Source of the DNA: Clostridiaceae bacterium
GTDB lineage: Bacteria > Bacillota > Clostridia > Lachnospirales > Lachnospiraceae
Length of the DNA stretch: 64,000 nucleotides
Assembly: GCA_009911065.1 (NCBI GenBank)
Contig: QXWR01000004.1
Span: 1 to 64,000 of the forward strand
Reading direction: 5' to 3'
Shown here piece after piece: positions 6,692 to 34,874 of this stretch. The translations under genes were made by a program, and so were the position numbers. The notes beneath the pieces were generated by a model. It did no database searches, was not told the origin of the DNA, and saw only the letters and a program-made list of their open reading frames with translations. Position 1 is the stretch's first letter; the number at the start of each line of letters is the position of its first letter.

Positions 6692-7675
6692 ATGGGATAT
6701 GTATATTTTACGGAGGAACAGAAGGAACGCGCCAATACGGTGGATCTGAAAGATTTCCTGGAGCGCCAGGGAGAGAGGCTTCTGCGCTCCGGGCCGGAGT
6801 GGAGGATGTCCAGTGACCACAGCATCACCATCCGGGGGAACCGCTGGTATGACCATGGATCCGGTGGAAAGGGCGGGGCAGCCATTGACTTTGTCATCTA
6901 CTACTACGGGAAATCCTTTCCGGATGCAGTGAGCATGCTCCTGGGAGGGGAACAGGGAGAGATCTATCGACAGAGCAAAAAGCAGGAGGAGATCCCAAGA
7001 GGTCCCTTTACCCTGCCTGCCGCCAATGAAAATATGATACGGGTGTTCGCCTATCTGCTAAAGAGCCGGATGTTGGACTATGGGGTGGTGTGTGCCTTTG
7101 CGGAAAAGAAGCTGATCTATGAAAGCCTGGAGCCGTCCAGGGATGGAAGCAGGCAGTACCACAACGCTATTTTTGTAGGGTATGACCCGGAAGGGAAAGC
7201 CAGGCATGCACACAAGAAAGGAATCTACACAGTCGGGAAAAGCTACCGGGGAAATCTGGAAAGCAGCGATCCCCGGTACAGCTTCCACTGGAACGGGAAA
7301 AGCAGCGAAATCTATGTGTTCGAGGCTCCCATCGACATGCTCTCTTATATCTCCCTGAACAAAGCCGACTGGAAAAACCACAGCTATATCTCCCTGTGCG
7401 GTGTAGGCTCCCAGGCATTGTTCCAGACACTGAAAGACCATCCGGCCTTAACGAAGATCTATCTGTGCCTGGATCACGATGAAGCGGGGATGGAAGCGGC
7501 GGCACGGATACAGGAAAAACTGACGGAAGCCGGATATCCGGACACGGAACTATATTTATCCCATTGGAAAGACTGGAATGAGGATCTCAAGGCGGCACAT
7601 GGCATGGAAGCTGTTCCGGCAGAGGAAAAGCCGCCTCCAGAGTTGGTGGAGGAAAAGATGTTGCAGATGGCCTGA
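6692..7675 (+). CDS. DUF3991/TOPRIM-domain protein, primase-like
   Basis: 327 residues behind AGGAGGC. The N-terminal 90 residues resemble the CHC2/DUF3991 fold (NRWYDHGSGGKGGAAIDFV, the usual GG-x-A-x-D-F run near a primase zinc-finger core). A TOPRIM core follows with EAPIDMLSY and YLCLDHDEAGMEAA near residue 260, giving the acidic metal-binding residues. Proteins of this type are common next to MobP relaxases and are thought to act in DNA replication or priming during transfer. It lacks a polymerase or helicase domain, so a full replicative primase is unlikely. Confidence 0.8.
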   Translation: MGYVYFTEEQKERANTVDLKDFLERQGERLLRSGPEWRMSSDHSITIRGNRWYDHGSGGKGGAAIDFVIYYYGKSFPDAVSMLLGGEQGEIYRQSKKQEEIPRGPFTLPAANENMIRVFAYLLKSRMLDYGVVCAFAEKKLIYESLEPSRDGSRQYHNAIFVGYDPEGKARHAHKKGIYTVGKSYRGNLESSDPRYSFHWNGKSSEIYVFEAPIDMLSYISLNKADWKNHSYISLCGVGSQALFQTLKDHPALTKIYLCLDHDEAGMEAAARIQEKLTEAGYPDTELYLSHWKDWNEDLKAAHGMEAVPAEEKPPPELVEEKMLQMA

Positions 7676-7843
7676 TTGTTTTTCCCGCCAAGCCTTTGTC
7701 GAAAACGACAGTTTCTCCTGATTCTAAACGGTGATGGGGAGTTGACTGGTCAGTCAGGTGCAGGGGCGTGGTATTTACTCTGAAATGCCGTCCACATAAC
7801 AAAATCGTGCTTGTTGTCAGAGTTTGTAGAGAGGAGAGTAAAC

Positions 7844-9664
7844 ATGCAGACGACACAGATCATAATTCTGGTGTGTGGGGGGCTGGGGATGTTCGCCTTG
7901 TTAGGACTGGTCACGTTCCTGTCCAGCCACTATAACCTGGACGGGATCAAATCCAAAACAGTCGGGGACGGCCAGTATGGGACGGCCCGCTTTGCCACGG
8001 ATAGGGAGAACAAAAAAACCTATACCCATGTCCCATACGAGCCGAAGCTGTGGAGGCAGGGGAAGAACCTGCCGGAAACCCAGGGCATCGTGGTGGGAGG
8101 AAAGTTCTCCCATGGCGGCATCACTGCCCTGATCGATTCCGGCGACATCCATCTTCTGATGATCGGTGCTGCCGGTGTAGGGAAAACGGCAAATTTTCTC
8201 TATCCCTGTATCGAGTATGCCTGTGCCAGCGGTATGAGTTTTCTCTGTACGGATACCAAAGGGGATCTGTTCCGGAACTATGCGGGGATTGCAGAAAAAT
8301 ACTATGGCTACAAAATATCCATCCTGGATCTTAGAAACCCCACACGCTCTGACGGGGACAATATCCTGGGGATGGTGAACAAATACATGGATCTGTGGCT
8401 GGAGGATCCGGAGAACCTGGTATACAAGGCCAAAGCAGAAAAGTATGCCAAGATTACAGCCAAGACCATCATCAGCTCCGGGGCAGATTCCTCCAGTTAC
8501 GGGCAGAACGCATTTTTCTATGACGCAGCGGAAGGACTCCTGACCAGTGTGCTTCTGCTGATCGCGGAATACTGTCCAAAGGAGCAGAGGCACATTGTCA
8601 GCGTGTTCAAGCTCATCCAGGATTTACTGGCTCCCTCACCGGTAAAAGGAAAGAACCAGTTCCAGTTGCTGATGCAGAAGCTGCCTCCGGAGCATAAGGC
8701 CCGATGGTTTGCCGGGGCTGCCTTAAATACCGCAGACCAGGCCATGGCCTCTGTGCTTTCCACGGCCATGTCCAGACTGAACGCATTTCTGGATTCAGAG
8801 ATGGAGCAGATCCTGTGCTTTGACGGTTCCATGGACACGGAGACTTTTTGTAATTCCAAGTCAGCCATCTTTATCGTACTGCCAGAGGAGGACAACACGA
8901 AATACTTTATGGTCAGCCTGTTTTTACAGCAGATCTACCGGGAGATGCTGTCTATCGCAGATGAACATGGCGGGAAGCTACCTAACCGTGTGGTGATTTT
9001 CGGTGATGAGATCGGGACCATCCCCAAGATCGAGTCCCTGGAGATGCTGTTCTCCGCAGGCCGTTCCCGGCGTATCAGCATGGTGCCCATCATCCAGTCC
9101 TTTGCCCAGTTGCAGAAGAACTATGGGAAAGAGGGCAGTGAGATCATTATCGACAACTGTCAGGATATCCTGTTCGGAGGGTTCGCGCCAAACTCTGAAA
9201 GTGCCGAGGTGCTGTCAAAGGCCCTGGGAAATAAGACAGTGTTGTCCGGCTCCATCAGCAGGGGAAAAAATGACCCCAGTCAGAGCCTGCAGATGATCCA
9301 GCGTCCCCTTATGACTCCGGATGAATTGAAATCTTTGCCGAAAGGGCATTTCATCCTGGCTAAAACAGGGTGCCATCCCATGCGGACAGAGCTGCGGCTG
9401 TTCTTTAAGTGGGGGATCGAATTTGAAGAAGGGTATGTGGCAGAGCAGCATGCGGCAAGGATTGTTTCTTATGCGGACCGGCTGACACTGGAGCAGGAGA
9501 TCCTGCGCAGGCAGATGGATGATGACATGGAAGGGTTTGAAGAGCCGCCAGAGCCGTCTGGACCGCCTGTAAGCGGCGGTATGGGACAGAGCCAGGTAAC
9601 GGAGCATACCGTCCCGTTACAGCCCCACAGACCCGGCTCCAGGCCGCCGCTACGGACAGATTGA
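7844..9664 (+). CDS. VirD4/TraG-type coupling ATPase
   Basis: 606 residues. A TTG at 7811 extends the frame, but GAGGAGAG at 7831-7838 sets the ATG at 7844. An N-terminal hydrophobic helix (IIILVCGGLGMFALLGLVTF) anchors it in the membrane. Walker A GAAGVGKT lies near residue 107 and Walker B VVIFGDEIGTI near residue 383, with the PIIQSFAQLQKNYG motif typical of type IV coupling proteins. It would bring the relaxosome to the secretion channel. No VirB-like channel genes are visible in the window, so the element may be mobilisable or may have lost that part. The tail is Pro/Gly-rich. Confidence 0.88.
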   Translation: MQTTQIIILVCGGLGMFALLGLVTFLSSHYNLDGIKSKTVGDGQYGTARFATDRENKKTYTHVPYEPKLWRQGKNLPETQGIVVGGKFSHGGITALIDSGDIHLLMIGAAGVGKTANFLYPCIEYACASGMSFLCTDTKGDLFRNYAGIAEKYYGYKISILDLRNPTRSDGDNILGMVNKYMDLWLEDPENLVYKAKAEKYAKITAKTIISSGADSSSYGQNAFFYDAAEGLLTSVLLLIAEYCPKEQRHIVSVFKLIQDLLAPSPVKGKNQFQLLMQKLPPEHKARWFAGAALNTADQAMASVLSTAMSRLNAFLDSEMEQILCFDGSMDTETFCNSKSAIFIVLPEEDNTKYFMVSLFLQQIYREMLSIADEHGGKLPNRVVIFGDEIGTIPKIESLEMLFSAGRSRRISMVPIIQSFAQLQKNYGKEGSEIIIDNCQDILFGGFAPNSESAEVLSKALGNKTVLSGSISRGKNDPSQSLQMIQRPLMTPDELKSLPKGHFILAKTGCHPMRTELRLFFKWGIEFEEGYVAEQHAARIVSYADRLTLEQEILRRQMDDDMEGFEEPPEPSGPPVSGGMGQSQVTEHTVPLQPHRPGSRPPLRTD

Positions 9665-27698: not shown

Positions 27699-28133
27699 AT
27701 GGCAGGAAGAAAAGTCCGGCGCGGAGAGATCTACTATGCCGATCTGAGGCCAGTGGTGGGCAGCGAACAGGGCGGCATCCGGCCAGTGGTGATCCTGCAG
27801 AACAATATAGGGAACCAGTTCAGCCCGACTACCATAGCGGCGGCGATCACCAGCCGGGATGAGAAGCACAAACTCCCAACCCATATCTGGATAGGCGGGC
27901 AGTTTTATGGTCTGCATCAGAATTCCATGATACTGCTGGAGCAGGTCCGGACACTGGACCGGAGAAGGCTGCGTGATTACATAGGCTGTCTGGATAAAGA
28001 GACCATGCAGGCAGTGGATAGGGGGCTGACTGTTAGCCTGGGGATGAAGCATCTCCAGAGGGAGGAAAAGAAGGCGGACAGCCGGAATCCGGGACGGACA
28101 GGAGTGAGAAAACAGGCCGGGAGAGGAGAGTGA
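27699..28133 (+). CDS. MazF/PemK-family endoribonuclease
   Basis: 144 residues; AAGGAAAGG stands before ATG 27699. The MazF barrel signature is complete: RRGEIYYADLRPVVGSEQGG, RPVVILQNN, TTIAAAITSR, and the later LEQVRTLDRRRL with Arg and the LGCLDKETM-like end. MazF enzymes cleave mRNA. No antitoxin gene is seen immediately upstream; MazF homologues without partner are common in these elements. The C-terminal 25 residues are basic and specific to this copy. The resolvase-like gene starts 4 bases later. Confidence 0.88.
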   Translation: MAGRKVRRGEIYYADLRPVVGSEQGGIRPVVILQNNIGNQFSPTTIAAAITSRDEKHKLPTHIWIGGQFYGLHQNSMILLEQVRTLDRRRLRDYIGCLDKETMQAVDRGLTVSLGMKHLQREEKKADSRNPGRTGVRKQAGRGE

Positions 28134-28136
28134 GAG

Positions 28137-28505
28137 ATGGAAAACAGAAAGAAAAAAGCGTGGATCTACACCCATATCGACGCGCCGGAGGACAGCCATG
28201 GTGCCTTAAAGAAGCAGTATGAACAGCTGAATACTTATGGAGAACAGCTTCGGACAGAGATCGCGGGCAGCTCCAGTGATACAGGCGGCACGGCAGGATT
28301 AAAAAGGCCGGGACTGGACCTGTTCCTGGAGGAAAAGGAGAGTAGGGGGATCGAAATACTCCTGGTCCTGGATTCATCCAGGATCTCCCGTGATGAAAAA
28401 CTGTGCAGGGAATTCCTTCGCCAGATGGCGCAAAGCGGGATCGAGGTATGTTCCCCGCTGGAGGGGATACTCTCGGCCAATCTGCGGAAGACCGCCGGAT
28501 TATGA
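28137..28505 (+). CDS. Degenerate serine-recombinase catalytic domain protein
   Basis: 122 residues, starting 4 bases after the MazF gene. It follows the resolvase N-terminal plan: AWIYTHIDAPED, LKKQYEQLNTYGEQL, SSDTGGTAGLKRPGLDLFLEE, ILLVLDSSRISRDEKLCREFL. In active enzymes the first strand ends in R-V-S with the nucleophilic Ser; here the same place reads THIDAPED without Ser or Arg, though SSRISRD retains the later Arg-type motif. It also lacks the DNA-binding C-terminal part. A non-catalytic accessory or regulatory role is more likely than recombination. Confidence 0.65.
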   Translation: MENRKKKAWIYTHIDAPEDSHGALKKQYEQLNTYGEQLRTEIAGSSSDTGGTAGLKRPGLDLFLEEKESRGIEILLVLDSSRISRDEKLCREFLRQMAQSGIEVCSPLEGILSANLRKTAGL

Positions 28506-28561: not shown

Positions 28562-28912
28562 ATGGATAAGACAGAATTTGAACGCTGGCAGACCGTGACC
28601 GGCAGCAGCCGGCACAGATGGGTAGAGGATACCGTTACCCGACTGAATGGCCGGGGAGCATTGTATTATACGGGCGGTGAATCAGGCGCTTTCATGAGGA
28701 TAACCGCAGAAGGGAACCTGACGGTGGGTACTTATGAAGGGGCATTCCCCCATATTGGGGAAGCATGCTTTATCAATAAGGCAGAGCATAAATTTAAGGA
28801 TTTCAATGAAGGATTCCAGTATGCCTGTCAGTTAGGGGGTATAAAGTTCCTGTCGGATCTGTTTTCTGCGAATGAAGTCCCCCAGGAACCGATCCAGGGG
28901 ATGAGCCTGTAA
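28562..28912 (+). CDS. Mobile-element hypothetical protein
   Basis: 116 residues; starts in the same direction 56 bases after the resolvase-like gene. Two halves can be distinguished: a DKTEFERWQTV helix and a beta-rich centre (GALYYTGGESGAFMRITAEGNLTVGTYEGAF) followed by FKDFNEGFQYACQLGG. Proteins like this are familiar from Tn1549-type elements but have no function known to me. Confidence 0.5.
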   Translation: MDKTEFERWQTVTGSSRHRWVEDTVTRLNGRGALYYTGGESGAFMRITAEGNLTVGTYEGAFPHIGEACFINKAEHKFKDFNEGFQYACQLGGIKFLSDLFSANEVPQEPIQGMSL

Positions 28913-29055
28913 AGCAGACAGAAAGACAAAATTTGTCAGTATTGCTTCATTTTGCAGGGATAAGTTTGTTGGGTATTCCGCTCGGAAAGTAATAGATATA
29001 ATCGGGGTGTCACGGTATACTGTGTATAGCGTCAGAGAGAAAGGAGGAGAAGCAG

Positions 29056-29145
29056 TTGAAACGATATTCGGTAGAAACCGCCGTGGAAGCAGCCGGAACG
29101 GGAAAAGGAAGCGGAAAGGTAAAATGTATGTTTATAAGGCGTTGA
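29056..29145 (+). pseudogene. 5' fragment of a mobile-element gene
   Basis: A TTG at 29056 behind AAAGGAGG opens MKRYSVETAVEAAGTGKGSG and stops after 29 codons, at the point where the next promoter begins. The strong ribosome site in front of a very short ORF suggests that the element's next gene was truncated here, which marks the right end of the second mobile-element remnant. Confidence 0.35.
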
Positions 29146-29148
29146 AAT

Positions 29149-29214
29149 TTCACGCCCAAAATGGAGTAGTTCGCACCCTTGCAATTAGTAATAAGGTACA
29201 AATGACGATATAAT
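29149..29214 (+). promoter_or_regulatory. LytTR-type double binding site and promoter of the two-component genes
   Basis: TTCACGCC (29149) and TTCGCACC (29170) are direct repeats exactly 21 bases apart, the spacing expected for LytTR-domain regulators. TATAAT lies at 29209-29214, 39 bases after the second repeat. The same architecture is found at 31445-31510. Confidence 0.75.
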
Positions 29215-29271
29215 AAAAGAAACAGATTTGAATTTTATATTTTTTAGGTTATGAAAGGAAGTCGGGATTTT

Positions 29272-29994
29272 ATGAGGATTGCAGTTTGTGATGATGACCA
29301 GGCAATCCGGGAAGAGATTTCCCGGCTGATACAAAAGCAGGTGTCGGAAGCGGATATTGTGGAGTATCAGTCAGGAGAAGAGTTGATAAATGGGAAAGGA
29401 AACTTTGACATTTATTTCCTCGATATTGAAATGGATAAAGTGTCCGGCATGGATATAGCAAGGCTCATTAGGGGACAAGAAGACAACGGCAGGCAAAGGA
29501 GCATTATTATTTTTGTGACAGGGTATCGGGAATATATGGAAGCGGCGTTTGATGTAAATGCGTTCCATTATCTGATAAAGCCCATTGACGCAGAAAAGTT
29601 TTCAGAGGTTTTCAGTCGGGCATGGAAAGAAGTGTCTGTTTCCTGTGAACAGACAAAAAAATATATCATGGTAAAAAGTTCTGGGATGCAGCAGAAATTG
29701 TTTTTAAAAGATATTTACTATATAGAAAGCGGAAATAAGAAAGTTATTTTTCATACAACGAATGGGACACTGGAAGTTTACGGGAAAATGGAAGAATTGG
29801 AAAATGGGTTAGGGAAAACTTTTTACCGCTGCCATAGGTGCTATCTTGTAAACATGGAAAAAATCTCTGCTTACAGTGCGGATAACATACAGGTCACAAA
29901 CGGGGATAACCTGCTCCTTGCAAGGAAGAAATATTCTGATTTCATCAAAACTTATATGCGGTATGTAAAAAATGGAGGGATTGTTAATGTATGA
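29272..29994 (+). CDS. LytTR response regulator, AgrA-like
   Basis: About 240 residues; GAAAGGAAG at 29254-29262 places the start at ATG 29272 (an ATG at 29251 lies upstream). Receiver domain: RIAVCDDDQAIREEI, phosphorylation Asp in FDIYFLDIEMDKVSGMD, FVTGYREYMEAAF and the KPI Lys. From about residue 145 a LytTR DNA-binding domain: LFLKDIYYIESGNKKVIFHT, FYRCHRCYLVNMEKI. It overlaps the kinase gene by 8 bases and has a double LytTR-type site in front of it, so autoregulation is likely. Confidence 0.9.
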   Translation: MRIAVCDDDQAIREEISRLIQKQVSEADIVEYQSGEELINGKGNFDIYFLDIEMDKVSGMDIARLIRGQEDNGRQRSIIIFVTGYREYMEAAFDVNAFHYLIKPIDAEKFSEVFSRAWKEVSVSCEQTKKYIMVKSSGMQQKLFLKDIYYIESGNKKVIFHTTNGTLEVYGKMEELENGLGKTFYRCHRCYLVNMEKISAYSADNIQVTNGDNLLLARKKYSDFIKTYMRYVKNGGIVNV

Positions 29995-31429
29995 TAGGTT
30001 GCTTCCAGTATCGATCTATTTCGTTGATAGTATATTAAGTGGGATTTATTCTCAGGGCTTCTTAAAAGAAAAGTACGGGAAAAAGGCAGTTTTGGCAGTA
30101 TGGGGAGCAGCTTTTTTTCTCATTCAGATTGCAGTATATGAAATACTGGACAATAAATTTCCGATTAGTGAAGTTGTGGGGATAATCGTAAATGTCTGCG
30201 TTCTGCTATTTATGCAATTTTTTCTCTTTGAGAAAGATATGCAAAAACAGGTTTTTGTTGCCTTTAGCTTCTTAGCAGGAAAAGAAATTGTGAAATATAT
30301 TGTCAGCGTACTTAGTGTTGTAGTTGCTGAATTGTGGAATGATTTTTTTGACTTTCTGATTTCAAAAGGAATGTTAAATACGGCAAACATACTTTATATT
30401 TGGGCAAATATTTCTGTCGCAGTAATAGCGGTCATATGTACACTTCTTTATGCTCTGCTTCTATATGTATATTTGTTTTTGATAGATAATAAATTTGTAA
30501 GAAAAGATTATCTGTTGCAGATCCATGAAAATATTTTTCTGGTTTTGCCTTGTCTTGCTGCCTTGTGTATTTCTGTAACAATTAAAATGATGATTGTATC
30601 GGTTGGAATCGGAATGACTGTGATTATTTATGACACTGTCCCTGCAACAAAATTCTGGATACCTGTTATCTGTGTTATGCTGCTATCGACTATTATTGCA
30701 AGCGTTATATTATTTCAGAAATTGGTACAGTACAATGAGGAAACCGGGAAACGTGCCATACTGGAAAATCAAGTACGGCAAATGCAGAAAGAAATTGTAG
30801 AAATACAGGACATATATACGGATATGAGAGGGCTTCGGCATGATATGAGAAGCCATATAGCCAATATTTCCTTACTTGTTAAAAATGTAGCGGGTTCTGT
30901 AAATGAAGAATTGGAAAGCTATATCGGAAAAATGGAGGAAACCGTCAGCAAATTAGATTTTACTTATCAGACAGGAAATCCGATCACGGATATTATTATC
31001 CACCAAAAAGGACAGGAAGCAGAGAAAAAACAGATACAGTTTAAGGTTGATTTTGCCTATCCCCCCAATCTTTTGATAGATATTTATGATATTGCGATTA
31101 TTTTGAATAATGCACTGGAAAACGCCATAGAAGCCTCCCGTAAAACAGAGGGCAGTAAACAGATAAAGTTACATTCTTATGTGAAAGGCAGCCTGTTCTT
31201 TATAGAGGTTGAAAATGATTTTTCAAAGGATATTATCATAGAGAAAGAAAGCGGTCTGCCTGTCAGCAGCAAGGAAATTGGAAAGCTGCACGGGATTGGA
31301 ATATCCAATATCCAAAGGTGTGCAAAGAAATATAAAGGCGATATTGATATTGAAATTTCTGATACAGATGGTAGAAAAAAATTCAGTCTTACAGTAATGA
31401 TGAATGGAAAGCCTGCGGTGGCAATCTGA
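29987..31429 (+). CDS. AgrC-like sensor histidine kinase (GHKL)
   Basis: About 480 residues; GGAGG at 29973-29977 precedes ATG 29987. Six or so membrane helices fill residues 1-235. The dimerisation and phosphoacceptor part has GLRHDMRSHIANISLL (His in LRHD), and the GHKL ATPase shows IILNNALENAIEAS (N box) and GIGISNIQRCAKKYKGD (G box). This architecture senses peptides in Agr-type systems, but no AgrD/AgrB genes are seen nearby. It forms one operon with the LytTR regulator. Confidence 0.88.
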   Translation: MYDRLLPVSIYFVDSILSGIYSQGFLKEKYGKKAVLAVWGAAFFLIQIAVYEILDNKFPISEVVGIIVNVCVLLFMQFFLFEKDMQKQVFVAFSFLAGKEIVKYIVSVLSVVVAELWNDFFDFLISKGMLNTANILYIWANISVAVIAVICTLLYALLLYVYLFLIDNKFVRKDYLLQIHENIFLVLPCLAALCISVTIKMMIVSVGIGMTVIIYDTVPATKFWIPVICVMLLSTIIASVILFQKLVQYNEETGKRAILENQVRQMQKEIVEIQDIYTDMRGLRHDMRSHIANISLLVKNVAGSVNEELESYIGKMEETVSKLDFTYQTGNPITDIIIHQKGQEAEKKQIQFKVDFAYPPNLLIDIYDIAIILNNALENAIEASRKTEGSKQIKLHSYVKGSLFFIEVENDFSKDIIIEKESGLPVSSKEIGKLHGIGISNIQRCAKKYKGDIDIEISDTDGRKKFSLTVMMNGKPAVAI

Positions 31430-31444
31430 TACTACACTGGAAAT

Positions 31445-31510
31445 TTCGCGCCCAAAATGGAGCAGTTCACGCCAAACCTATGAAAAAATTGTTTTGATTG
31501 GCGATAAACT
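31445..31510 (+). promoter_or_regulatory. LytTR-type double binding site and promoter of the DUF6033-type gene
   Basis: TTCGCGCC (31445) and TTCACGCC (31466) lie 21 bases apart, joined by CAAAATGGAGCAG, nearly identical to the site at 29149. TAAACT at 31505-31510 is again 39 bases from the second repeat. This predicts direct control of the next gene by the adjacent response regulator. Confidence 0.75.
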
Positions 31511-31555
31511 ATGTAGAAACCATTTTTAATGACAGAGAAAGGAAAGGTGTTTTAG

Positions 31556-32284
31556 ATGGCAATGGAGATTACAAACAATTATAGCAACTATGTCACAAAC
31601 TATGTTGATAAAGCTAAACGAGCAGACAGCAAGGAAGAAACAAAGATAAAGATAAATAATAAGGACAAAATACAGAAATATTACGAAAAATTGTGCAAAA
31701 AATTTCCTCAGATAAATTTTAATACGAATGGAGGTGTATTACCGAGCAACAGCAGTAAAGTTACTGTAAATCTTTCTTATGACTGTTTAAAGAAAATGGC
31801 AAATGATCCAGAATTTGCAAAAGAAATAGAATGGAACTTATCGGGAGAAGCAGCGGCAAATTCAATGGTTTACGGGTGGGCACAAAGAGATGGTGTCGTA
31901 CTTGGAGGAAGAACCGTTACATATGATGCTAATGGTAACAGACAATCATCTTGTGGCGGTATGAGAACAGCAAATGCAGGAGATAGCAATACGAATAAAA
32001 TGCAGAAAAAGTATAAGACTGAGGAAGAACGCTGGTTAAAAGCCAGAAAGAAACATGAGGAAAAAGAAAAAATAGCTAAAAAGCAGGCAGAGAAAAAGGC
32101 CGAAGAAAAGAGAGTGGCTGAGAGGCGAGCAAAGAATAAAGAAGTCGAAGAAGTAAGGACAGAAACAGGAGAATATACCGTAAGTGCTACGGGTACGGAT
32201 ATAAAAGCTGTTACGGAGAAAGTTATATCTGCTTCTTTGGGTACACCTGCGCCGATAGGGGCAAGTTTTGATATGAAGGTGTAA
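31556..32284 (+). CDS. DUF6033-like protein, LytTR-regulated
   Basis: 242 residues behind GAAAGGAAAGG. The N-terminus (EITNNYSNYVTNYVDKAKR) is polar, with no signal peptide. The middle contains NTNGGVLPSNSSKVTVNLSYDCLKKMANDPEFAKEIEWNL, which resembles a DUF6033-type domain. A long Lys/Glu helix (residues about 155-200) is a coiled coil. Related genes are common in Lachnospiraceae next to LytTR regulators; their role, possibly as exported or cell-cell proteins, is not known. The promoter carries the two-component site described above. Confidence 0.55.
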   Translation: MAMEITNNYSNYVTNYVDKAKRADSKEETKIKINNKDKIQKYYEKLCKKFPQINFNTNGGVLPSNSSKVTVNLSYDCLKKMANDPEFAKEIEWNLSGEAAANSMVYGWAQRDGVVLGGRTVTYDANGNRQSSCGGMRTANAGDSNTNKMQKKYKTEEERWLKARKKHEEKEKIAKKQAEKKAEEKRVAERRAKNKEVEEVRTETGEYTVSATGTDIKAVTEKVISASLGTPAPIGASFDMKV

Positions 32285-32361
32285 ATATTATATTTATCTT
32301 ATCTTGCAGAGGTACTTAAACAGGTGCTTCTGTGGATTGCCGGACTTATCATAGGGGCATG

Positions 32362-32389
32362 GGCGGTTCTGAATGACAAAAGAACCGCC
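32362..32389 (+). terminator. Hairpin after first DUF6033-like gene
   Basis: GGCGGTTCT (32362-32370) pairs with AGAACCGCC (32381-32389). The surrounding ~65 bases (GGACTTATCATA...CCGTAA) recur after the next gene at 33113-33175, so the unit was duplicated. A GTG at 32324 opens a 25-codon ORF with a membrane-like helix (VLLWIAGLIIGAWAVL) across this block; the second copy of the block does not preserve it. Confidence 0.55.
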
Positions 32390-32421
32390 GTAAAATATTG
32401 ATAACAATGGAGGATTAAAAA

Positions 32422-33096
32422 ATGGCTATTAGCGGAATAGGACAGAATTATTATCAGAACAATGTGGAAACAAAGAGAAACACAAAAAATGTGAATGGTA
32501 CGGAAAAGTTCGCATTGAAGAAAACAGAAAGTACAAGGGAATTATCGGAAGCGGAAGAAATGGAGATTTTTAAGAAAGAGTTTTATGAAGATCTTTCCCA
32601 AATAACCAATCATAGAACCGTAAGTAATGCGGCTGTCAACATTTCAGAAGCAGCATTTAAGGCTATGAAAGATGACCCTCAATACAGAGAAAAAATTCTT
32701 TCGTTGATTCAAAGAGATTGGGGCGATTCTTATGGACCACGGAATTGTTCTGTTTTGATAACGGTTGGTGCGACTTTGAATGAGTATAGAGGGGATTCAT
32801 GGCCTGTGGGCTATGATTCTAAATTTGATGTACGCTCACAAAATAGTTTTTATAAAAGAACAAGTGAAAAGAAAGATAATCAGAAAGAGCTTCTGGAAGA
32901 ATACCTTGAAAAACGGGCGCAGGTAAAAAAACAGCAGCAGGAAATGTTGAATGAGAAGATTGCGGAGCAGGAACAGGAAAGAAGCCGACTTTTACAGTCA
33001 TGGAACAATGAAAGGCTGCTGTCGAAAGCGTCTATTGCTTATGAAGCAAATGTTTTGACGGAGATTGTAGCAGATAATGTTTCTCTGCTTGGCTGA
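32422..33096 (+). CDS. DUF6033-like protein, second copy
   Basis: 224 residues behind AATGGAGG. It starts MAISGIGQNYYQNNV and has a central NAAVNISEAAFKAMKDDPQYREKILSLI that aligns with the VTVNLSYDCLKKMANDPEFAKEI part of the preceding gene; both end in a charged coiled coil (EEYLEKRAQVKKQQQEML). The two are diverged paralogues followed by the same hairpin block. Function unknown; co-regulation through the upstream LytTR site is likely if transcription passes the first hairpin. Confidence 0.55.
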   Translation: MAISGIGQNYYQNNVETKRNTKNVNGTEKFALKKTESTRELSEAEEMEIFKKEFYEDLSQITNHRTVSNAAVNISEAAFKAMKDDPQYREKILSLIQRDWGDSYGPRNCSVLITVGATLNEYRGDSWPVGYDSKFDVRSQNSFYKRTSEKKDNQKELLEEYLEKRAQVKKQQQEMLNEKIAEQEQERSRLLQSWNNERLLSKASIAYEANVLTEIVADNVSLLG

Positions 33097-33112
33097 TAAG
33101 GGCATTTTGCCT

Positions 33113-33175
33113 GGACTTATCATAAGGGGGCAAAGGCGGTTCTGAATGACAGAAGAACCGCCGTAATAATACTGA
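33113..33175 (+). repeat. Second copy of the hairpin block
   Basis: GGACTTATCATA, then GGCGGTTCT (33135-33143) paired with AGAACCGCC (33154-33162) and CCGTAATAATACTGATAACA. It repeats the block after the previous paralogue with few changes. Confidence 0.65.
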
Positions 33176-33239
33176 TAACATTTTTCTATTCAACTTCTCT
33201 GTGATAGATTGCGGTGTGCTGATTGCTTGTGTAATCGGC

Positions 33240-33285
33240 AATACTGTGTGAAACGGATGCCCGGATACGCTTCACACAGTATTTT
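33240..33285. terminator. Terminator hairpin
   Basis: AATACTGTGTGAA (33240-33252) pairs perfectly with TTCACACAGTATT (33271-33283), followed by TT. It separates the DUF6033-like genes from the convergent genes. Confidence 0.65.
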
Positions 33286-33356
33286 CCAGTGTTTGTACAC
33301 ATAAGAGTGCTTTCATTCAGCTTCTGACTGAACACAAGATACTGGCTTCCTGTATT

Positions 33357-33576
33357 TTACCAGAAAGAATCCCCAAATTTGGCAATTCGTTCATGTTGGT
33401 AAACCTTCGTGTATTCTACAAATTCCGGGACCTTTTTACCGCTGCCGGTTTTTTCAGATTCTCTGTCCAGATAGTTTTTTCCTTCTTCGCCTCCGTCATT
33501 TGATATGTGGGTTGGCGATTCTGTACTTGTTCGGCGTAGGCTCCCTGGTAAGATTTTGTCCATCAACCACTATCAT
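33357..33576 (-). pseudogene. Frameshifted remnant ORF
   Basis: A frame from ATG 33576 (MIVVDGQNLTREP) stops at ATCAAATGA, while the next frame continues directly with NDGGEEGKNYLDRESEK to GDSFW at 33357. The two parts read as one ~73-residue protein with a single shift. It follows the 34105-33608 gene on the same strand. The family is not recognised. Confidence 0.4.
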
Positions 33577-33607
33577 AATATCGCTTCTTTTTTTAGAAAA
33601 GTTCTGT

Positions 33608-34105
33608 TTAGGTATATACATCGAAATGCCCACTGGATTCTTCGTCCAAAATACTGGTATCGAACGGTTTTCCATATGTCCAGCTTGGATCATGCTTTAA
33701 AATAATGGATTTAAGCCTTTCCGCTTCATCATTTACAACCTGCTCCAGCGTCCAGGTGGCGGGAAGTCGCTGCTTTCCGGGTAATGTTTTCGTGTAATTT
33801 TTAATCAGGTTTGCCCTGTCATTGATATGTTCAGGACTTCCGTCTGTCATTCCGTACCGTTTTACAAAATCTTCCCTGACCATGCTTCTAAGCTGATCCG
33901 CTACATCTTTATCAACGGGAATGATTTTCTGCCATTCAGACGGAGAGCGGTTTGTAATGTCCATCCATGGATCTTCATATGGATTGATATGTCCCGGCGG
34001 CGGGGCGGAACCGTTGGGCAGTAAGGAAGTATTTTTCCTTGCCTGGGCATTCCAATTTTCTACATATCGTTTTGCGATGGCTGTCGCTGTCATTGACACA
34101 TTCAT
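33608..34105 (-). CDS. Hypothetical protein of the LytTR-adjacent cluster
   Basis: 165 residues; a strong site AAAGGAGGGATATTGA precedes the ATG. The protein starts MNVSMTATAIAKRYVENWN, has a Pro/Gly-rich segment (SAPPPGHINPYEDPWM) and a helical end with PATWTLEQVVNDEAERL and SWTYGKPFDTSILDEE. It resembles, in style, the small unknown proteins that accompany DUF6033-like genes in Lachnospiraceae. No domain can be named. An upstream short ORF (34217-33975) overlaps it in another frame and contains its ribosome site. Confidence 0.55.
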   Translation of the reverse strand: MNVSMTATAIAKRYVENWNAQARKNTSLLPNGSAPPPGHINPYEDPWMDITNRSPSEWQKIIPVDKDVADQLRSMVREDFVKRYGMTDGSPEHINDRANLIKNYTKTLPGKQRLPATWTLEQVVNDEAERLKSIILKHDPSWTYGKPFDTSILDEESSGHFDVYT

Positions 34106-34304
34106 TCAATATCCCTCCTTTGTTGTTTCTTCCTTGTGGAAACGGTACGCGCCGCTGTGCGTCACTGTAGTCAATCTTCGTATTTAAGTAAGCTGCATTG
34201 TCAAAATTCACCTCCATATTTTATTTTTTAAGGAATGGGGGTTGGATGTAAAGGAGATTACAAGTGCTGGGACAACAAAGGCGATACCATAAGAAAATTC
34301 AAAA

Positions 34305-34874
34305 TCACGTTACATGGGAGTCAATAGTTTTGTCTGAATACTTATTAACCCTTACGGATGTGCCGGTCACAGAAACTCCCATCATGTTTCCAGAAAAGGT
34401 CATAAGTTCATAGGAAATTCCGATAATAGCATTTCCACCTAAATCGGTTGAATTTTTGACCATAATTTTCAAAACCGCTTGTTTTGCGGCTCGCAGTTTT
34501 TCCGAATACTCAGATGCTTCCGTACCAAAAAAATCTGAGATGGAAGCACCTACATCAGATAAATATCCGGTTCCCATTACTGTTTCACCTGTGACAATGC
34601 CCAAGTATTCAGTTATGCGAAATCCCTCGAAAGAGAACCCCGTTGTAAGCATATGGTTCTTGAATCTTTCAGAATATATGCGTTGTTCTTCCAGAGATTT
34701 TTGTGCAAGTTTTTGTTTGTGCTGCTGGATTGCAAGATCGGCCTCGGCCTTTATTTGGGCCTGTTCAATTTTAAAGGCTTCTTCTGATTCTGAAATAGAG
34801 CATCCACAAGAAAAACACATACCACATGGGAACATTTCACTTGTCAGTTCCCCACCGCATTTTATACATTTCAT
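34305..34874 (-). CDS. YbjQ-like domain protein with N-terminal zinc ribbon
   Basis: 189 residues. Residues 1-30 contain CIKCGG and CGMCFSCGCS, a zinc-ribbon-like Cys set. A charged helix (QHKQKLAQKSLEEQR) is followed by the YbjQ/DUF74 fold: MLTTGFSFEGFRITEYLGIVTGETVMGTGY, then KLRAAKQAVLKIMVKNSTDLGGNAIIGISYEL and MMGVSVTGTSVRV. YbjQ proteins form pentamers and were proposed to bind metals; no firm function is known. It stands alone on its strand. Confidence 0.78.
   Translation of the reverse strand: MKCIKCGGELTSEMFPCGMCFSCGCSISESEEAFKIEQAQIKAEADLAIQQHKQKLAQKSLEEQRIYSERFKNHMLTTGFSFEGFRITEYLGIVTGETVMGTGYLSDVGASISDFFGTEASEYSEKLRAAKQAVLKIMVKNSTDLGGNAIIGISYELMTFSGNMMGVSVTGTSVRVNKYSDKTIDSHVT

Follow-up and report, generated by a model that had tools for sequence, protein, structure and literature searches.

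A LytTR-type repeat pair precedes two promoters with different -10 elements at a two-component locus of Lachnospiraceae, the second resembling flagellar sigma-28 promoters

What does a response regulator control when the same pair of direct repeats stands before its own operon and before a neighbouring gene, and do the two promoters use the same sigma factor? The question is raised by a locus in a 64,000-nucleotide stretch of DNA (the window; GenBank assembly GCA_009911065.1, contig QXWR01000004.1, positions 1 to 64,000, forward strand) from a Clostridiaceae bacterium placed in the Lachnospiraceae. There, genes for a LytTR response regulator, a sensor kinase and a DUF6033 protein, the last here called cargo gene 1, follow one another, and a repeat pair precedes the first (site 1) and the third (site 2). 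Comparison with related genomes points to a reading that we regard as probable, in which the LytTR regulator would activate its own operon through sigma-A and switch a flagellar-class cargo gene through sigma-28. The features concerned are the following.

29149..29177 (+): site 1, direct repeat TTCACGCC-N13-TTCGCACC (repeats 29149-29156 and 29170-29177), upstream of the regulator operon
29206..29214 (+): overlapping -10 elements of site 1, CGATA at 29206-29210 and TATAAT at 29209-29214
29272..29994 (+): response regulator of the LytTR type, with a receiver and a LytTR domain (Pfam Response_reg 2e-16, LytTR 3.7e-18); alternative ATG upstream at 29251
29987..31429 (+): sensor histidine kinase of the GHKL type (Pfam HATPase_c_5, 6.7e-20); alternative ATG at 29972
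31445..31473 (+): site 2, direct repeat TTCGCGCC-N13-TTCACGCC (repeats 31445-31452 and 31466-31473), in the gap between the kinase gene and cargo gene 1
31500..31507 (+): sigma-28-type -10 element of site 2, GGCGATAA, with TGAA 15 bases upstream as a weak -35
31556..32284 (+): cargo gene 1, DUF6033 (PF19498; 52.4 bits, cut-off 25)

Two exact repeat pairs in the genome

At both sites the repeats start 21 bases apart, about two helical turns, and the two 13-base spacers are near-identical (CAAAATGGAGYAG). A preliminary description of this DNA had reported TTCRCRCC repeats with this spacing before the regulator operon and before the first DUF6033-like gene, and had judged the match in spacing hard to explain by chance. 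Coordinates, spacing and gene context all check out, and the gene at 31556-32284 belongs to DUF6033 by Pfam. The scan for TTCRCRCC-N13-TTCRCRCC that the same description had proposed returned, over the whole genome (5,365,699 bases in 284 contigs), sites 1 and 2 only, where about 0.04 exact pairs would be expected by chance under equal base use.

The regulator is a single protein with a receiver and a LytTR domain; a kinase gene is adjacent, and the paired direct repeats stand upstream of the regulator's own operon. The protein matches the structures of ComE (4cbv) and AgrA (3bs1), and against the NCBIfam AgrA equivalog it scored 48.7 bits, below the cut-off of 400. Paired direct repeats are a familiar feature of LytTR regulators, for which AgrA is the standard case (passages of PMC4227749). 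A LytTR site with autoregulation is very likely here.

The pair had also been offered as a searchable motif. With up to three mismatches it occurred 261 times in the genome, against 282 for the reversed control, and three times in the window, against 2.98 expected. Since this count does not exceed the reversed control, we rejected the loosened pair as a genome-wide motif, and the pair alone is unusable for this purpose. When 33 of the 36 places with up to two mismatches were checked for CGATA at the right distance, only sites 1 and 2 had it. The useful search motif is the pair plus CGATA 36 or 37 bases past the start of the second repeat, not the pair alone.

One further candidate, a pair with one mismatch (L003, contig C202:26011-26039), was set aside. 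It has no CGATA and lies upstream of a short lysine- and glutamate-rich remnant with stops (by eye), and it looks like a decayed site, a dead copy of a cargo promoter.

The two promoters differ in their -10 elements

The two sites had been described as identical in architecture, each with a -10 element 39 bases from the second repeat. The repeats do agree, and the -10 elements differ. At 39 bases past the start of the second repeat stands TATAAT at site 1 and TAAACT at site 2; the element common to both is CGATA at +36 (29206 and 31502). Because the -10 elements of relatives differ by site, the position at +39 applies to site 1 and fails at site 2, where TAAACT is not kept: site 1 has TATAAT overlapping CGATAT, and site 2 has CGATA only.

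To count these elements, pairs were picked by their repeats alone with up to three mismatches, and near-identical loci were removed (site 1, 32 to 30; site 2, 30 to 27). At site 1, TATAAT was matched in at least five of six positions in 29 of the 30 non-redundant loci (window included), with CGATA at 36 or 37 in 23 and at 35 in one more, the usual form being CGATAT overlapping TATAAT. At site 2, CGATA stood at 36 or 37 in 25 of the 27 loci, and TATAAT reached at least five of six positions in six, being perfect in one (L159); the five others mostly read GATAAT inside CGATAAT. Relatives also kept TAGAA 3' of the site-2 CGATA, at a distance that would fit a start site. Three loci labelled Oscillospiraceae (L158, L162, L167) had at site 1 only TATAAT or TACAAT; their site 2 carried CGATA in L167 and the degenerate CCGAATA in L158, and in L162 none was found in a search 3' of the kinase.

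In Lachnospiraceae, sigma-28 promoters have been given as TAAA (-35) and MCGATAa (-10), and promoters of the housekeeping factor as TTtACA and cATAAT; the published flagellin -10 elements read ccgatat, tcgatat, acgatat, gcgatat and gcgataa (passages of PMC3720852). The window thus has a sigma-A-type TATAAT at site 1 and a sigma-28-type core, CGATA(A/T), at site 2. The latter reads CGATAA (at 31502); the base before it is G, and the consensus has A or C there. Its -35 is weak because TGAA, and not TAAA, stands 15 bases before GGCGATAA. The same genome encodes FliA (219.6 bits, cut-off 189.6) and FlhA. Upstream of each of its three flagellin matches that exceed the cut-off stands GCCGATAT or GACGATAT, the -35 elements being imperfect, and a fourth, weak flagellin match had no such -10 upstream.

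An ordinary autoregulated switch of the AgrA/ComE type, with sigma-A at both promoters and CGATA as part of an unusual sigma-A -10 read with bound regulator, would also explain the near-constant TATAAT at site 1, which persists even where CGATA is lost, and the five site-2 loci at five of six positions together with the perfect one. Promoters activated by AgrA are, moreover, described as having suboptimal spacing between -35 and -10 (passages of PMC4227749). However, at site 2 it is CGATA that is kept in nearly every locus and perfect TATAAT that is the exception, CGATA is the published sigma-28 -10 of the family (passages of PMC3720852), and relatives of the cargo gene often carry promoters resembling TAAA-N15-GCCGATAT. 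We therefore regard a purely sigma-A switch as rather unlikely, and take the sigma-28 part of the reading above to be likely as judged from promoter comparison.

Both sites recur in relatives

Among 299 genomes of the family, the pair with up to one mismatch was found at 15 places in 11 genomes, and the reversed control at none. It stood directly upstream of regulator relatives in G045, G096 and G060 (60-75% identity) and upstream of broken regulator copies in G029 and G251. A second pair lay 3' of kinases in G045, G029, G251 and G096; the second copy in G060 has four mismatches to the repeat pattern, with CGATA still present. No such regulator was seen in the stretches fetched around the places in G152, G173, G200 and contig C146 of G029; the pairs in G036 and G143 have weaker regulator relatives beside them and point away from these. 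Pairs of this last kind are seen at L084 5507-5535 (-) and L089 7958-8007 (+), where L089 has three repeats. The L084 pair is followed by TATAAT and so possibly marks a divergent target.

A scan of named genomes for regulator relatives, of which the best 80 matches were kept, gave 79 loci. Among these matches, most were from Lachnospiraceae, some from Oscillospiraceae and Selenomonadaceae, and one from Clostridium. Upstream regions were analysed in 76 loci (L144, L153 and L163, at contig starts, were left out) with the repeat loosened to TTCRYRMC. In 44 of the 76, again among the matches listed, the best pair was followed by CGATA 35-37 bases past the second-repeat start. Close relatives retain TTCRCRCC, and distant ones drift, with TTCATTCC, TTCGTTAC and TTCACAAC among the forms and the same spacing. 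Within the close clade (L132-L167), site 2 was located 3' of the kinase in 31 of 36 loci by a score that favours CGATA, and was not found in L139, L148, L156, L162 and L165. Nor was it found in the distant regulator clade, in which a DUF6033-type gene often directly follows the kinase. Of 30 loci of distant relatives, 19 exceed 37% identity, and 16 of these have CGATA in the 200 bases upstream; of the 11 with lower identity, 4 do. The architecture of pair plus CGATA thus appears to belong mainly to one clade.

The gene behind the recurring site 2 was of the DUF6033 or DUF3879 type or had no name. Since close relatives carry the pair in both positions, before the regulator and after its kinase, a two-promoter autoregulatory switch is well supported by these comparisons. 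The claim that the pairs define a small regulon of the neighbouring regulator likewise has good support, the pair recurring before both regulator and cargo gene in other genera. Near-identical spacers in the window are also what would be seen if site 2 were a functionless copy of the regulator promoter, brought along when cargo was inserted behind the kinase. That origin is very improbable, given that 27 non-redundant loci retain site 2, with a -10 systematically unlike that of site 1, and that the cargo genes behind it vary.

Cargo genes and their possible link to the flagellum

Two further protein genes of the window belong to this part of the locus.

32422..33096 (+): cargo gene 2, no Pfam family over cut-off; an 85% identical paralogue lies on contig C255
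33608-34105 (-): DUF3879 protein gene (Pfam)

When ten hand-picked first genes behind site 2 at other loci were scanned with Pfam, one was DUF3879, five were DUF6033 (two over the cut-off) and four had no family. In an alignment of ten hand-picked cargo rows, judged by eye, the start (M-S/A-M-E-I-T-x-N-Y) and the end (G-A-S-F-D-I-K-A) were more alike than the middle in most rows, and the divergence of cargo did not track that of the regulator (rank correlation 0.17, 17 loci). We read the cargo as interchangeable behind a fixed promoter because of these shared ends and variable middles and because its divergence does not follow that of the regulator. Even where cargo proteins differ in length, they often have these two ends in common and vary in between, so that the ends resemble a shared tag. 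The idea that the kinase sensor and the cargo co-evolve as receptor and ligand found no support and was set aside (partial rank correlation 0.08, p 0.28, 17 loci). The predicted model of the DUF6033 cargo has an alpha/beta domain, a long helix and loose ends (mean predicted local distance difference test score, pLDDT, 69). It had no match in the PDB at an E-value of 0.001 or better, and searching solved structures by sequence brought up no convincing match (best E-value 0.066).

Co-occurrence with the flagellar sigma factor was examined in 150 genomes from 150 genera of the family. DUF6033 was present in 45 of them (44 over the cut-off) and FliA over its cut-off in 79. FliA was found in 44 of the 45 DUF6033 genomes versus 79 of 150 overall (Fisher p 5.6e-15, kinship ignored), and the sole DUF6033 genome without FliA, G042, has FlhA. 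Conversely, 44 of the 79 sampled FliA-bearing genomes of the Lachnospiraceae type contained DUF6033. Regulator relatives at E < 1e-40 occurred only in FliA genomes (21/21) of this sample. In a separate, hand-chosen set of 50 of the 79 regulator loci (49 genomes), FliA was found in 44 genomes at an E-value of 1e-45 and in 43 over the cut-off.

Promoters of DUF6033 genes elsewhere gave a similar picture. TAAA-N14-16-GCCGATAW with at most one mismatch was present in 14 of 30 DUF6033 upstream regions (L102-L131; L119, a wrongly chosen open reading frame, was counted as a miss) versus 27 of 831 other upstream regions, which include some regulator and cargo genes. Given the class of the sigma factor and the co-occurrence with FliA, we would guess that the cargo protein is flagellum-associated or flagellum-exported, and export through the flagellar apparatus as such is doubtful.

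Evidence against a sigma-28 promoter

It should be noted that several observations weigh against the assignment of site 2 and its cargo to sigma-28. A full TAAA -35 (four of four letters, N14-16) was found in none of 25 site-2 and none of 24 site-1 promoters, the best match being three of four letters in 21 of the 25 and 7 of the 24. CGATA at 35-37 was missing at site 1 in 32 of the 76 regulator loci, most of which also lack a good pair. The genome of L159 has FliA, yet its site 2 is TATAAT without CGATA; site 1 of L173, L174 and L182 also lacks CGATA, with FliA present in both genomes tested (L173, L182). Five of the 49 regulator genomes have no FliA at E 1e-45, and four of these five also lack FlhA (one has it), yet the loci of four of them (L132, L142, L150, L152) retain CGATA. 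All five are metagenome-assembled genomes, so the genes may be missing from the assemblies. The test of co-occurrence between DUF6033 and FliA takes no account of relatedness among genomes. Finally, no good sigma-28 promoter was found in this genome at the cargo loci on contigs C130, C239 and C250, which hold the RNA element described below, or before the genes on C255.

A two-hairpin RNA element between cargo genes

An element of 65 bases that forms two hairpins is found between cargo genes; the window has two copies.

32333..32395 (+): RNA element copy 1, 70.1 bits with model R1, 27 bases upstream of the cargo gene 2 ATG
33104..33168 (+): RNA element copy 2, 87 bits with model R1, after cargo gene 2

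Covariance model R1 was built from 13 copies, both window copies being in the seed. It gave 42 matches at E-values up to 0.05 in 100 stretches, seeds included, and six in this genome. Copies outside the window lie on contigs C255, C130, C250 and C239 of the same genome and, for example, at L204, L208, L153 and L155. At E-values up to 1e-5 the element was present in 8 of 150 family genomes, all eight with FliA (p 0.007).

Across 40 distinct matches, 94 cells showed a two-sided change with the pair kept, versus 28.6 after shuffling and 3-37 with shifted partners. Two-sided changes fell in 13 of 14 pairs in an alignment fitted to the structure, and in 8 of 14 pairs when RNAalifold was run on the seed alignment. 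The position relative to genes was also regular. Among 25 strong matches, 23 begin between 3 bases before and 69 bases after the stop of the preceding open frame; 17 end 13-53 bases before the following ATG, three have followers further off, and five have no follower within 400 bases. Many of the flanking frames are of the cargo type, not each of them being identified. Rfam (4227 models) gave no match to the element in window positions 28900-34400 at E-values up to 1, nor at E-values up to 0.1 in four loci holding ten copies (E < 1e-6). The element may act in control at the level of mRNA, for example as a CsrA site or an attenuator.

Neighbouring genes and further copies

Further DUF6033 genes of this genome lie on contigs C255 and C250. 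The one on C255 stands behind another kinase, together with the 85% copy of cargo gene 2 and a DUF3879-like gene. On C250 (L039, about 6975-8341), transposase-like open reading frames (by eye) lie directly upstream of a DUF6033 and DUF3879-like pair and may have separated it from its promoter. In the window, a MazF-like toxin gene (27699-28133) followed by a short open reading frame with a resolvase N-terminus (28137-28505) lies just upstream of the regulator locus, which suggests that this region is mobile or a remnant.

Proposed mechanism

The sites, their positions, the two -10 classes and the co-occurrence with FliA emerge from comparison among genomes. From them we infer binding, activation, sigma use and AND logic as follows. 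Sites 1 and 2 would be bound by the LytTR regulator encoded between them, with one LytTR domain per repeat. Phosphorylated regulator on the two repeats, two turns apart on one face of the DNA, would contact RNA polymerase over a constant distance. The regulator would activate its own operon at site 1, from a -10 serving sigma-A (TATAAT) and perhaps also sigma-28 (CGATAT), and with sigma-A this would constitute feedback on the switch. At site 2 it would activate the cargo gene from a -10 fitting FliA/sigma-28 (CGATAA) and not sigma-A, the repeat pair standing in for the weak -35 or reinforcing it. The pair probably supplies the missing -35 contact.

FliA becomes free only after completion of the hook, the flagellar checkpoint. 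The cargo would therefore need signal and checkpoint together, being made only with the kinase signal on and FliA free. A fuller version remains tentative, and we give it somewhat less than even weight: that the LytTR regulator replaces the -35 for the sigma-28 holoenzyme, that swapped-in proteins of the DUF6033 or DUF3879 type, perhaps attached to the flagellum or exported through it, are made only with signal and finished hook, and that their operons carry an undescribed structured intergenic RNA.

The positions of the sites alone cannot separate activation from repression, and the CGATA core exists independently of the box. The regulator could on these grounds be a repressor, its boxes lying over the upstream promoter of flagellar-type genes that stay off until a signal arrives. 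We consider this improbable, as neither promoter has a good -35, and a spacing from box to -10 that is fixed at 36/37 suits contact with polymerase better than simple blocking.

Relation to known systems

With AgrA/AgrC and ComE/ComD the locus has in common a receiver plus LytTR regulator, a GHKL kinase, and paired direct repeats upstream of the autoregulated operon and of a target gene. It differs from them in the sigma-28-type -10 at the target promoter and in its DUF6033-type cargo. The scan of ten window proteins revealed no peptide or peptide-processing gene, no search aimed at such genes having been made. The class III flagellar promoters of sigma-28 (FliA/SigD) in Lachnospiraceae, as given in passages of PMC3720852, share the CGATA(A/T) -10, whereas site 2 has, in place of the TAAA -35, a LytTR-type repeat pair at fixed distance.

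The nearest precedent that we found is in Clostridioides difficile, where transcription of tcdR is raised both by CdtR, a LytTR regulator, and by SigD (passages of PMC4944984 and PMC11139204). The likeness is that a LytTR regulator and a flagellar sigma factor bear on one gene. In the same passages no LytTR site is identified upstream of tcdR, CdtR left sigD transcription unchanged, and no promoter that combines such a box with CGATA, as site 2 does, is described. PMC5026340, from the passages available, concerns FleQ and is off topic for LytTR regulators at sigma-28 promoters. In the open-access literature searched (titles, abstract starts and passages), we found no description of a LytTR regulator at sigma-28 promoters, and the names DUF6033 and DUF3879 (PF12995) were not found. 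Cargo behind site 2 often scores to these two families (PF19498 and PF12995), and the comparisons made here would tie them to a flagellar sigma factor and a LytTR switch.

Taken together, the promoter comparison suggests for site 2 a promoter of the class that the flagellar machinery uses, which would tie the DUF6033 family to the flagellum. If this is true, the two-part motif of repeat pair plus CGATA at 36/37 would make the regulon readable from sequence, and a two-component system acting directly on a late flagellar promoter would be added to those known. DUF6033, a family of unknown function, would then gain a testable link to the flagellum.

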